From Desulfocapsaceae bacterium (GTDB taxonomy: Bacteria > Desulfobacterota > Desulfobulbia > Desulfobulbales > Desulfocapsaceae): a DNA stretch of 34,624 bases. Shown here one piece after another: positions 21,955 through 24,988 of this stretch. The notes below the pieces were generated by a model. The model had not been told where the DNA came from and did not search any database. It worked only from the letters and a program-made list of their open reading frames with translations. The stretch's first letter is position 1, and every line of letters starts with the position of its first letter. Both the position numbers and the translations under genes were made by a program. The DNA is taken from assembly GCA_030653035.1 (NCBI GenBank), contig JAUSAB010000034.1:1-34624 (forward strand), read 5' to 3'.

Positions 21955-22206
21955 ATGATCAAGATCACTCTTTACCGTTCAGCACTTTGCCCACGGTGCC
22001 ACATGGCCCGTAAAACTCTGTATGAGTTAATCGACAGCAAGCCTGACATCCACATTGAAGAAGTAGATATTGTCACCAACCCTCTGAGGGCATGGAAGGA
22101 TGGAGTTCGCTTTATCCCCACCCTGAAAAGTGGCGACAAGACCCTGACCGGTATTTTTCTCAGTCGTGAAGAAATTCAGGGATTTTTAGGTGCCGTTAGT
22201 AAATGA
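21955..22206 (+). CDS. Small glutaredoxin-like thioredoxin-fold protein
   Basis: 83 residues. It has beta-strand MIKITLYRS, then redox CPRC at 12-15, ARKTLYELI helix, HIEEVDIVTNPLRAW, and the cis-Pro segment RFIPTL, all typical of a minimal thioredoxin/glutaredoxin fold. AGGAG stands about nine bases before the ATG. It is divergent from the deacetylase operon. The last codons (GAVSK) and the stop lie inside a dispersed hairpin repeat, so the native C-terminus may have been replaced. The physiological partner is not known. Confidence 0.75.
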   Translation: MIKITLYRSALCPRCHMARKTLYELIDSKPDIHIEEVDIVTNPLRAWKDGVRFIPTLKSGDKTLTGIFLSREEIQGFLGAVSK

Positions 22207-22295
22207 GCAAGCTTTTCCGCTCATTTGGTTACGGCACCTTATGCCGCTTCAAAGAAACAGCCAATCTGTTCCGGCTATTTCTTTGAATGGCGTCC
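22188..22295 (+). repeat. Dispersed hairpin repeat family 1, copy B
   Basis: Two stem-loops in tandem. The first has arms GGTGCCGTTAGTAAATGAGC and its near-complement ending TTACGGCACC. The linker is CTTATGCCGC. The second has TCAAAGAAACAGCC pairing with GGCTATTTCTTTGA. It overlaps the stop codon of the glutaredoxin-like gene. Confidence 0.8.
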
Positions 22296-22771: not shown

Positions 22772-24457
22772 TTACAACCGGGCGGCCCGGTTCAGGCTGC
22801 TCAGCATCGCCTTGATCGTGGCGATAATGATGTCGGTATCGACCCCAGCCCCCCAGATCCTCCGGCCATCGGGATATTCCGTCTCGATATAGGCGACGGC
22901 CTTAGAACTGGAGCCCTTGGTCAAGGCATGTTCGTGATAACCGCACAGGGTAAACTCGCAACCAAGCCCGGCTTTCAGGGCGGTGCAAAAGGCATCGAGC
23001 GGACCATTGCCCCCGGCTGAAAACGTTCTGGTCTCACCATTCACACTGATGACTGCCTCAACATCGGCAGAAGAACGTTCTTCTTCGGTATCGACATGCC
23101 GCTTCATGACATTGAAGCTGACCAGGCCATAGGGATGGACAAGGGCCAGATATTCATCCTTGAATGCAGCCCAGAGCTCGGTCATCTGCAACTCGCGGCC
23201 CTCACGGTCAGTAAGCCTCTGGATGACTGCGCCAAATTCAGGATGCATCTCTTTGGGCATCTTGAAGCCAAACTCCCTGTCCATGATATAGGCAACACCA
23301 CCCTTACCCGACTGACTGTTGATGCGGATAATGGATTCATAGCTCCGACCGACATCGCGAGGATCAATGGGCAGATAGGGAACAGCCCATACCCCGTCAG
23401 CGGCGGCGTCACAGGCGTTCATCCCCTTGTTGATGGCATCCTGATGGGAACCGGAAAAGGCGGTATAAACCAGCTCACCGGCATAGGGATGACGGACATG
23501 CACCGGAATCCGGGTCACCTGCTCAGAGACATCAATCACCCGGTTGATGTCATGAAGATTCAGTCCCGGATTGACCCCTTGCGTAAACATGTTCAACGCC
23601 AGGGTGATGATATCGACATTGCCGGTACGCTCCCCGTTGCCAAACAGGGTTCCCTCCACCCGATCACCGCCGGCCATCAACGCCAGCTCGGTTGCTGCGA
23701 CCGCACAACCGCGGTCATTGTGGGCATGAAGGCTGATGATGGCACAATTGCGATCTTGCATGTTGGTGCAAAACCACTCAATCTGATCGGCATAGACATT
23801 AGGGGTCGCCATCTCGACCGTGGCCGGCAGATTGATGATCATTCTGTTGTCAGGGGTCGGCTTCCACACCCCCATGACTGCCCCGCAGATCTCAAGGGCA
23901 AAATCCATCTCAGTCCCGGTGAAACTTTCCGGGGAATACTCATAGCGGAAAGCAGTCTCAGGATAGAGTGCCGCCTCCTCCTGGATCCAGCGAGCCCCTT
24001 TGATAGCCAAGGCGGTGATCTCAGCCCTGTTCATCTGAAAGACCACCCGCCGCTGGAGGGTGGAAGTGGAATTATAAAGATGAATAATGGCGCGTCTCAC
24101 CCCTTTCAGGGCCTCAAAGCTCTTCTTGATGAGATGTTCCCGGGCCGGGGTCAGGATCTGGATGGTCACATCTTCAGGGATCAACCCCTGTTCAATAAGC
24201 GTCGTTGCGAAATCAAACTCCACCTGGGATGCCGAAGGAAAACCAATCTCGATTTCTTTAAAACCAATATCCACGAGGAGTTGAAAGAGCTTCAGTTTTT
24301 CCTCAAGATTCATGGGCTGAACCAGGGCCTGATTACCGTCACGCAGATCCACACTGCACCAGTCAGGGGGCTTGGTGATGGTTTTTCCAGGCCAGGAACG
24401 GGTTGGCAGATCCAACCGGGGATAGGGACGATACTTTCTCACTGCATCAGGATTCAT
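22772..24457 (-). CDS. leuA: 2-isopropylmalate synthase
   Basis: First enzyme of leucine synthesis, condensing acetyl-CoA with 2-ketoisovalerate. The 561-residue protein is of the longer, LeuA2-like type that starts MNPDAVRKYRPYPRLDL and contains VDLRDGNQALVQPM, the HMGL TIM-barrel signature, then SLHAHNDRG and LFGNGERTGN. The C-terminal LeuA dimer domain (about 450-561) has the ends expected for leucine allostery. Start set at 24457: AAGGAG is ten bases upstream, while the open frame to 24487 runs into a hairpin repeat. The 5' region holds an attenuator. It is divergent from ilvBN, which makes the precursor's acetolactate. Confidence 0.96.
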   Translation of the reverse strand: MNPDAVRKYRPYPRLDLPTRSWPGKTITKPPDWCSVDLRDGNQALVQPMNLEEKLKLFQLLVDIGFKEIEIGFPSASQVEFDFATTLIEQGLIPEDVTIQILTPAREHLIKKSFEALKGVRRAIIHLYNSTSTLQRRVVFQMNRAEITALAIKGARWIQEEAALYPETAFRYEYSPESFTGTEMDFALEICGAVMGVWKPTPDNRMIINLPATVEMATPNVYADQIEWFCTNMQDRNCAIISLHAHNDRGCAVAATELALMAGGDRVEGTLFGNGERTGNVDIITLALNMFTQGVNPGLNLHDINRVIDVSEQVTRIPVHVRHPYAGELVYTAFSGSHQDAINKGMNACDAAADGVWAVPYLPIDPRDVGRSYESIIRINSQSGKGGVAYIMDREFGFKMPKEMHPEFGAVIQRLTDREGRELQMTELWAAFKDEYLALVHPYGLVSFNVMKRHVDTEEERSSADVEAVISVNGETRTFSAGGNGPLDAFCTALKAGLGCEFTLCGYHEHALTKGSSSKAVAYIETEYPDGRRIWGAGVDTDIIIATIKAMLSSLNRAARL

Positions 24458-24478
24458 GACCTTCAAGCTCCTTTTTTT

Positions 24479-24588
24479 AGGTGCCATTATGAAATAAGCA
24501 ATGCTTTTTTGCTTATTTCATAATGGCACCTTATGCCGCTTCAAAGAAACAGCCAATTTTTCACGGCTGTTTCTTTGAGCGGCTCTGG
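24479..24588 (+). repeat. Dispersed hairpin repeat family 1, copy C (best preserved)
   Basis: The first stem is a perfect 22-bp inverted repeat beginning GGTGCCATTATGAAATAAGC with loop TGCTTTT. It is followed by linker CTTATGCCGC and a perfect 14-bp stem TCAAAGAAACAGCC/GGCTGTTTCTTTGA. It sits in the leuA untranslated leader, directly upstream of the ribosome site. A half copy (GCCGTTACGAAATAACCATTA) is seen at about 24611-24631. Confidence 0.85.
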
Positions 24589-24661
24589 TAGATAATATAA
24601 TACAAGCAGCCGTTACGAAATAACCATTACATGTCTAAACATTTCTGAACGGTTCCCAAAT

Positions 24662-24693
24662 AAAAAAAGGCCGGGGTTTTGAACCGCGGCCTT
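24662..24693 (-). terminator. Attenuator terminator of leuA
   Basis: On the minus strand AAGGCCG (24693-24687) pairs with CGGCCTT, with a G-G mismatch, then GGTT/AACC and a three-base loop, and seven U follow. It lies between the leader peptide (24721-24801) and leuA. No other gene upstream would need it, which makes an attenuator the best reading. The leader segment GGGTTGTGGC at about 24749-24740 can pair (with wobbles) to the terminator's 5' half, GCCGCGGTTC, as an antiterminator. Confidence 0.75.
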
Positions 24694-24720
24694 GGGAATT
24701 TACTGGTTATTTGCAAACAA

Positions 24721-24801
24721 TCAGAATTGCATTATCCCTGCCACAACCCGAGCTGGAGGAGCGCTTAGTAGCAGCAGTGATAGAGAAAAGTAAGATGCCA
24801 T
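24721..24801 (-). CDS. leuA leader peptide (leucine-sensing, 26 residues)
   Basis: A minus-strand ORF of 26 codons, starting at ATG 24801 and stopping at TGA 24721-24723. It contains Leu-Ser then four consecutive Leu (CTA TCA CTG CTG CTA CTA, 24783-24766), followed by a tail SAPPARVVAGIMQF. Three of the five Leu codons are CTA, which the strongly C/G-ended genes around use sparingly by eye. This resembles E. coli LeuL, which also has four consecutive Leu before an Arg/Gly-rich tail. The ribosome site is weak (GTGGA, about 11 bases upstream). Stalling at the Leu codons would favour the antiterminator form and read-through into leuA. Confidence 0.75.
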   Translation of the reverse strand: MASYFSLSLLLLSAPPARVVAGIMQF

Positions 24802-24845
24802 TTTTTATAATCCACAAAGAGAAAATTGTTTACAAGTATATATGT

Positions 24846-24875
24846 AAAGTAAACTCGATCACCGATCCTTGTCAA
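24846..24875 (-). promoter_or_regulatory. Putative promoter of the leuA leader
   Basis: Minus-strand TTGACA (24875-24870, perfect) and TACTTT (24851-24846) separated by 18 bp, giving an RNA start near 24839, about 38 bases before the leader ATG. Confidence 0.55.
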
Positions 24876-24988
24876 GCAACTTTTACAAATCCTTTTCTGC
24901 CGGAACAACGTCTCTGCCGATCCCCACCCCAATGTTTTACCAACGAAGTAAGCATTTAAGGAATTATTCCCAGAAGACACCTTCATTC

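Follow-up and report, generated by a model that had tools for sequence, protein, structure and literature searches.

How does a bacterium of the Desulfocapsaceae adjust leuA, the gene for 2-isopropylmalate synthase, to its supply of leucine? We approached this question through contig JAUSAB010000034.1 of assembly GCA_030653035.1, analysed over its full 34,624 nucleotides (the window), in which the minus strand carries, in this order, a TTGACA box, a 26-codon open reading frame (ORF) with a run of Leu codons, a GC hairpin, seven U and leuA. Our analysis indicates that this leader is very probably a ribosome-mediated transcription attenuator that would sense charged leucyl-tRNA. What is established is which parts the leader has, in what order and how well conserved, and that two rival helices co-vary. 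The finding contributes a case of leucine regulation from a group of sulfur-cycle bacteria and gives the 26-codon ORF a likely function by comparison alone, and the leaders from 140 genomes provide a test, outside the enterics, of how attenuators choose among synonymous codons.

Leader ORF, codon choice and conservation

A reading made earlier from the letters alone (the sequence-only reading) had described a 26-codon ORF with four adjacent Leu codons and a further CTA one codon before them, and this is exactly what the window holds: CTA at codon 7 and, after one Ser codon, CTG CTG CTA CTA at codons 9-12 (Table 1). The GC hairpin with seven U that it reported is likewise present, after a 27-nt spacer, with an internal C.C mismatch in the stem (AAGGCCGcGG-UUCAAAA-CCcCGGCCUU). 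The locus thus combines a short ORF bearing a codon run for the downstream gene's amino acid with an intrinsic terminator, the two parts expected of an attenuator. When both strands of the whole window were scanned for a residue-rich short ORF followed by a terminator, the leuA leader was the single instance. A consensus scan of the minus strand gave neither promoter nor terminator here, and it probably missed the hairpin because of the internal mismatch.

This leuA is carried by 84 of the 93 genomes of the window's family (f1). Upstream DNA was taken for 80 of them (G031, G041, G044 and G058, with the gene start at a contig edge or unmatched, were left out), and three of these upstreams are shortened by contig ends (G018, G069 and G088), which leaves 77. 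An automatic rule found an ORF of 15-36 amino acids with a Leu run, followed by a hairpin with a U run, in 66 of the 77, and seven more leaders were recognized by eye (G001, G009, G010, G012, G013, G017 and G055; that of G017 holds only two Leu codons and that of G055 starts with GTG). The relatives therefore keep both the Leu run and the hairpin, the loss of which the sequence-only reading had named as its refutation. A stricter rule recovered the ORF in 67 of the 77 real upstreams and the ORF with its terminator in 61; among 3080 dinucleotide shuffles it recovered the ORF alone 160 times and the combination never.

The choice of Leu codons in the leaders is strongly biased. CUA accounts for 165 of 447 Leu codons in the 66 leaders and for 16 of 2080 in 46 leuA genes drawn from this and a second family (f6), the genomes not being exactly those of the 66 leaders; this is 37% versus 0.8%, an approximately 48-fold difference with an odds ratio of 75. 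At least one CUA is present in 65 of the 66 leaders, and none is found among the 196 Leu codons of six window genes. Leaders of the second family use CUA for 30 of 176 Leu codons (two f1 duplicates, L063 and L066, are counted in this set). The codon should be readable in the window's genome, since one of the five tRNA-Leu genes in nine stretches covering the ten longest of 42 genome tRNA matches has the anticodon UAG. According to PMC1183508, modelling finds CUA better suited than any other codon to leucine control in E. coli, and work cited there found that sensitivity fell when CUA codons of Salmonella became CUG. The N-terminal part of the leader varies highly among relatives except for Leu, and the C-terminal residues [ST]V[AV]..G.[LF] recur across families.

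Of the "perfect TTGACA promoter" claimed at first, the -35 half stands and the -10 half, TACTTT at 18-nt spacing, is a poor match. A TTGACA-type box was found for 65 of the 66 leaders, the window included, and is exactly TTGACA in 62; the rule took the TTGAC/TTGATA-type box nearest to the leader ATG at a distance of 35 nt or more on its 5' side, and a few picks (for example G030, G032 and G061) lie too near the ATG to convince. A region rich in G..TA.T is shared at the -10 place among the 66 leaders.

Rival helices and the path of folding

An attenuator needs two mutually exclusive helices, and we examined both in an alignment of 52 leaders. The terminator stem is paired in 94.4% of cells and 8 of its 12 pairs have changed on both sides; none of 500 shuffles was as high on any measure. 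The competing antiterminator joins a strand within the leader ORF (segment 2, codons 18-21) to the 5' arm of the terminator (segment 3). It is paired in 90.6% of cells compared with 28-58% when the strands are slid, and shows double changes at four pairs, in 21 cells (1 of 500 shuffles as high). Columns 153 and 155 are the clearest, with G/A changes in the shared arm matched both in the terminator 3' arm (segment 4) and in segment 2. In 40 of the 66 leaders the antiterminator duplex was equalled by at most 10 of 200 shuffles. We also swapped strands between genera, using 89 leaders (the 66 and 23 from f6) in 17 groups. A leader's own strands beat those of other genera in 17 of 17 groups for pairing 3:4 and in 16 of 17 for pairing 2:3, and a control pairing of the Leu run (segment 1) with segment 3 went in the opposite direction (own strands better in 35 of 89 leaders and 7 of 17 groups, p 0.0075). 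As judged from these alignments, an antiterminator that uses the terminator 5' arm, and so excludes the terminator, is present across the relatives.

In the window itself the antiterminator, which the sequence-only reading had called a weak pairing, consists of 10 pairs, half of them G.U, at -12.0 kcal/mol. The pairing was thus found; taken alone it cannot be told from shuffles, and comparison of sequences makes it credible through the relatives only. In the sister genome G085 the duplex reaches -17.4 kcal/mol with a paired strand that differs only by C for U (Ala GCT versus Val GTT). The C.C mismatch of the terminator is common to the window's genus, at -14.9 to -15.8 kcal/mol, whereas terminators elsewhere in the family lie at -18.4 to -32.3 kcal/mol, except that of G005 at -14.5. 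The leader RNA as a whole folds more stably than its shuffles (z -2.9). In the window 15 nt separate the end of the Leu run from segment 2, which is also the median of the 66 leaders; the distance ranges from -6 to 30, the negative value probably reflecting a misplaced segment 2.

These features suggest a sequence of events in which the start site, the translation of the ORF, ribosome stalling and the response to leucine are inferred. Transcription would start near 24839, and the leader ORF would be translated by a ribosome trailing RNA polymerase. Under leucine shortage this ribosome would stall at the CUA/CUG run and cover segment 1. Segment 2 (24749-24740) would then be open to pairing with segment 3 (24690-24681) at a time when the 3' arm of the terminator does not yet exist, and polymerase would read through into leuA. 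With plentiful leucine, the ribosome would pass segment 2, segment 3 would pair with segment 4, and transcription would terminate in the U run (24668-24662); in the window sequence, the Leu run could in this state also fold back onto segment 2 and the ORF tail. The earlier proposal that leucine starvation opens leuA fits the codon choice, the covarying helices and the promoter box, while transcription start, translation and leucine response belong to its conditional part. With a ribosome placed in the Leu run and the RNA made up to the end of segment 3, the predicted probability of 2:3 pairing was 0.68-0.79 in the window and exceeded 0.5 in 89-94% of the 66 leaders, and with a ribosome at the stop codon the terminator was predicted to form in all 66. 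In these models the stall position leaves the antiterminator strand free, as an attenuator requires. With no ribosome, the Leu run paired with the segment 2 region at 0.74 in the window and above 0.5 in 23% of the 66, and untranslated window RNA should therefore terminate.

Several results weigh against this account. When the whole RNA is folded to equilibrium around a stalled ribosome, the terminator wins, at 0.85 versus 0.00 in the window and above 0.5 in 89-95% of the 66 leaders. The folding test proposed by the sequence-only reading therefore turned out in two ways, with 2:3 forming before arm 4 is made and the terminator prevailing afterwards, and the order of synthesis would have to decide between them in a kinetic mechanism. 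Segment 2 ends 18 nt before the end of the ORF, so that a ribosome at the stop, with a footprint of the usual size, would cover its edge only. The window antiterminator alone is no better than shuffled sequence (124 of 200 as good) and is the weakest of its genus (-12.0 kcal/mol versus -14.2 to -20.3 in 11 others). In the 52-sequence alignment the antiterminator lies within the shuffle range on two of five measures (cells paired, 70/500; pair types, 475/500), and for 26 of the 66 leaders the duplex is equalled by over 10 of 200 shuffles. The Shine-Dalgarno (SD) sequence of the leader start is weak on average (about -2 kcal/mol). Finally, four family genomes appear to have lost or altered the leader: G082 and G083 are without both parts, G076 has the hairpin only and G081 is rearranged.

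Pairing of the Leu run with segment 2 in a conserved protector helix was considered and rejected: RNAalifold gave no such helix in the ORF alone, and the 1:2 pairing showed no co-evolution in the strand swap (8/17 groups, p 0.8). This, and the prediction of a protector helix in only 23% of the 66 leaders, is in favour of a different off state, in which the Leu codons are sensed but a ribosome pauses at an SD-like stretch near the ORF end and no protector helix is involved. Affinity for the anti-SD is indeed highest 12-16 nt short of the ORF end in the 66 f1 leaders (mean -6.2 kcal/mol), and this purine-rich peak exceeds the leader's own SD. The peak, however, lies 4-6 nt further 5' of the stop in f6 (about 20 nt before the end, 23 leaders), codon-shuffled tails are nearly as SD-like (-7.0 versus -7.6 kcal/mol), and the Leu run and the purine-rich ORF tail co-evolve (15/17 groups, p 5e-4), as the strands of an RNA helix would. 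We regard pausing as an improbable source of the off state, if one to be kept in mind beside an attenuator that works through competing helices.

Table 1. Features of the leuA locus in the window (all on the minus strand)
Feature	Position	Basis and remarks
-35 box TTGACA	24875-24870	Read directly; starts 74 nt 5' of the leader ATG
-10-like TACTTT	24851-24846	18-nt spacing from the -35 box; poor match
Leader ORF MASYFSLSLLLLSAPPARVVAGIMQF, 26 codons, stop TGA	24801-24721	Read directly; counterparts in relatives
Segment 1, control codons CTA TCA CTG CTG CTA CTA	24766..24783	Rare CUA makes up 3 of the 5 Leu codons
Segment 2, antiterminator 5' strand GGGUUGUGGC, codons 18-21	24740..24749	Predicted to pair with terminator 5' arm; similar place in relatives
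3' part of leader ORF predicted to pair with Leu run (protector hairpin)	24721..24748	Fold; purine-rich, SD-like in relatives
Segment 3 GCCGCGGUUC, shared by antiterminator (3' strand) and terminator (5' arm)	24681..24690	Duplex and alignment
Intrinsic terminator, hairpin 24693-24667 and U7 24668-24662	24662..24693	-14.9 kcal/mol; covariation
Two-hairpin repeat element	24479..24590	Between terminator and leuA; in the leuA transcript, not part of the attenuator
leuA, 2-isopropylmalate synthase, 561 amino acids, TIGR00970 (yeast-type)	22772..24457	Profile matches

Distribution and descent

To follow the leader beyond the family, we used a covariance model (R1, 145 positions) made from 52 of the 97 leaders located (duplicates among them), chosen to span the groups, and ran it over 257 genomes of the order, in which leuA was also sought. 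At E<=1e-9, R1 matched in 140 genomes, namely 76 of 93 in f1, 62 of 73 in f6 and two in f7 (five f6 genomes that appear in neither result table were placed by handle order); at this cut-off none was listed in the remaining families of the order. Matches occurred in 135 of 148 genomes with leuA (E<=1e-150) and in 5 of the 109 that lacked a leuA match, one of these five, G028, having its leuA split in two, and in both leuA-bearing f7 genomes the leader stands directly 5' of the gene. The distribution thus follows leuA across the order, and leader and gene travel together. The cut-off was chosen because seven weaker matches (E 1e-6 to 2e-7; L238-L244, by eye) looked unrelated, three resembling atpE-like gene ends and four unrelated terminators or ORFs; it also drops true leaders, among them G140 (hairpin region partly masked), the G069 leuA hairpin, and G090 and G091 (E ~1e-6). 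For loci L044-L078, a script gave a leader with terminator in 31 of 35, one with a wrong ORF (L059, left out of the model alignment, strand swap and codon counts), and none for L049, L057, L064 and L075, of which L057 and L064 have little upstream DNA.

Three members of the window's genus without a recognizable leader ORF (G076, G082 and G083) may be natural losses or assembly gaps. Genome G069 has a second complete Leu leader before a second leuA-like frame (G069:C32:75621-75761, L233), through duplication or contamination. Short ORFs ending in LRL[IT][STA]PA[AS] lie 210-352 nt 5' of a leuA-like gene at six alphaproteobacterial loci (L082, L083, L089, L094, L095 and L103) and are probably leucine leaders of another lineage.

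In a sample of 395 genomes of the phylum, R1 had 17 matches at E<=1e-6, nine of them from f1 or f6. The other eight, judged by eye, comprise two that are leuA-like (G568 and G481), two that are Phe/Tyr-rich and in the aromatic pathway (G486 and G436), one possible trp leader (G566) and three without assignment (G298, G397 and G635). Both leuA-like cases, L255 (G481:C60:13513-13667) and L252 (G568:C66:20636-20793), are Leu-rich leaders with terminators before leuA-like genes outside the order, one of which, by eye, is of a different leuA type. Leucine attenuators may thus be wider in the Desulfobacterota, as far as sequence can tell. At L258 (G436:C20:31196-31348), a Phe/Tyr-rich ORF, MKTTLVNTSGYFFFYFFKYFICPPEVLVV, and a terminator precede an ADH-synthase-like gene of the alternative aromatic pathway (gene assigned by eye), and at L253 (G486:C95:2312-2459, partly masked) another such ORF, MLRSISTLFYFWFYFSDDKERFARSV, and a terminator precede DAHP synthase and pheA-like genes, also assigned by eye.

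The sequence-only reading had called the leader LeuL-like and cited enteric leuL as its precedent. The layout and codon choice are indeed alike: the window has 26 codons and E. coli/Salmonella leuL (RF00512) 28, both have four adjacent Leu codons and a terminator before leuA, and both use the rare CUA as control codon (CTA four times in E. coli). Alternative helices form in E. coli leuL, as they are predicted to here. The Rfam model aligns end to end (1-148) with the window leader, and R1 aligns end to end with E. coli leuL at 21.5 bits, CUA run included, as would be expected if the element had been inherited or transferred as a member of that family. We consider such membership very unlikely. 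RF00512 scores 14.0 bits against a gathering threshold of 50; R1 gives E. coli pheL 22.3 bits, above leuL, and thrL 14.8, with no match listed on the E. coli stretches holding hisL, trpL, ilvL and ivbL; there was no DNA match in E. coli genomes; and the window leuA is yeast-type (766 bits) rather than leuA_bact (192). The enteric leader differs further from the window's group, which has a VAG/VVE-type tail and the switch strand GGCCGCGG/GGCCACGG; the comparison with the enteric leu operon covered leuA, not leuABCD. Because the score is below the Leu_leader threshold and R1 cannot separate leuL from pheL, homology was rejected as unproven and we claim likeness, not descent. At gathering thresholds no Rfam family was found in the whole window, and at E<=10 nothing that holds was found in 24600-24950, T-box not being among the six families listed.

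PMC3847290 describes a predicted LeuL of Epsilonproteobacteria, with a small ORF, rare Leu codons and a short RNA before leu genes, and shows dRNA-seq for C. jejuni, so that leucine attenuators appear not to be confined to enterics; unlike that leader, the window's has its Leu codons within its first half, and 14 codons, including the antiterminator strand, come after them. Ribosome-mediated leader-peptide attenuators of leu and ilv genes are also described, in the accessible portions of PMC1262725 and PMC10272879, for the Actinobacteria, which share the control of branched-chain genes and belong to another phylum. In the open PMC literature, which leaves out subscription papers such as the comparative survey of proteobacterial attenuators by Vitreschak et al. 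2004 (reportedly the classic one), we found no description of a leucine attenuator for this group, and the available passages of PMC545781 (Rodionov 2004, on delta-proteobacteria), PMC2965389 (Naville 2010), PMC3766115, PMC2864571 and PMC12306157 do not mention a leuA leader there. We propose tentatively, with slightly less than even confidence, that leader-peptide attenuation is old and widespread in the Desulfobacterota and unrelated to that of enterics by descent, that its leucine version independently reached the CUA codon predicted by selective-charging theory for E. coli, and that its Leu run is one strand of a helix with the purine-rich tail.

Two other explanations fare worse. The ORF might encode a small functional protein whose recurring C-terminal residues are a peptide motif, and trans-acting leader peptides are on record (in the available text of PMC7298713), but its tail codons coincide with the antiterminator strand and with the purine-rich partner of the Leu run, so that conservation at the RNA level can explain them, and the N-terminal part varies widely apart from Leu; we give this explanation hardly any weight. 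The least credible reading of all takes the hairpin for a simple constitutive terminator (ending stray transcripts, for example) and the ORF for incidental. The hairpin is an ordinary GC hairpin with a U run, and G076 has it without a recognizable leader ORF, but it stands between the conserved promoter box and leuA, with ilvB divergent on the other side, where it would merely silence leuA, and the ORF, the CUA codons and the 2:3 pairing are conserved together with it.

The surrounding locus and a palindromic repeat

The leuA product scores 842.9 bits with NF002991, 765.9 bits with TIGR00970 (cut-off 697.4) and 192 bits with leuA_bact. The gene's ATG lies at 24457, 209 nt 3' of the attenuator hairpin; ilvB is divergent upstream, with ilvN next after it. 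The source genome comprises 3.4 Mb in 118 contigs.

Between terminator and start codon lies the two-hairpin repeat of Table 1, and region 24440-24665 folds far more stably than its shuffles (z -9.2). The two halves match the genome 31 and 38 times, or in 22 and 37 places once palindrome matches on both strands are merged. A second copy lies at 22183-22291, approximately 480 nt past the 3' end of leuA and beyond a 110-amino-acid ORF. No match was found when the repeat was searched against plasmids; a link to a Y1/RAYT transposase was considered, and the window's genome has seven Y1_Tnp matches, none of them on the window's contig. At the same place the sister genome G087 has 62 nt without the element, and G085 has a similar hairpin pair in the opposite order. 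Approximately 100-150 extra nt are present in the leuA 5' leader of 6 of the 12 genus members measured, several with strong hairpins, and the interval between attenuator and start codon is possibly an insertion hot spot.
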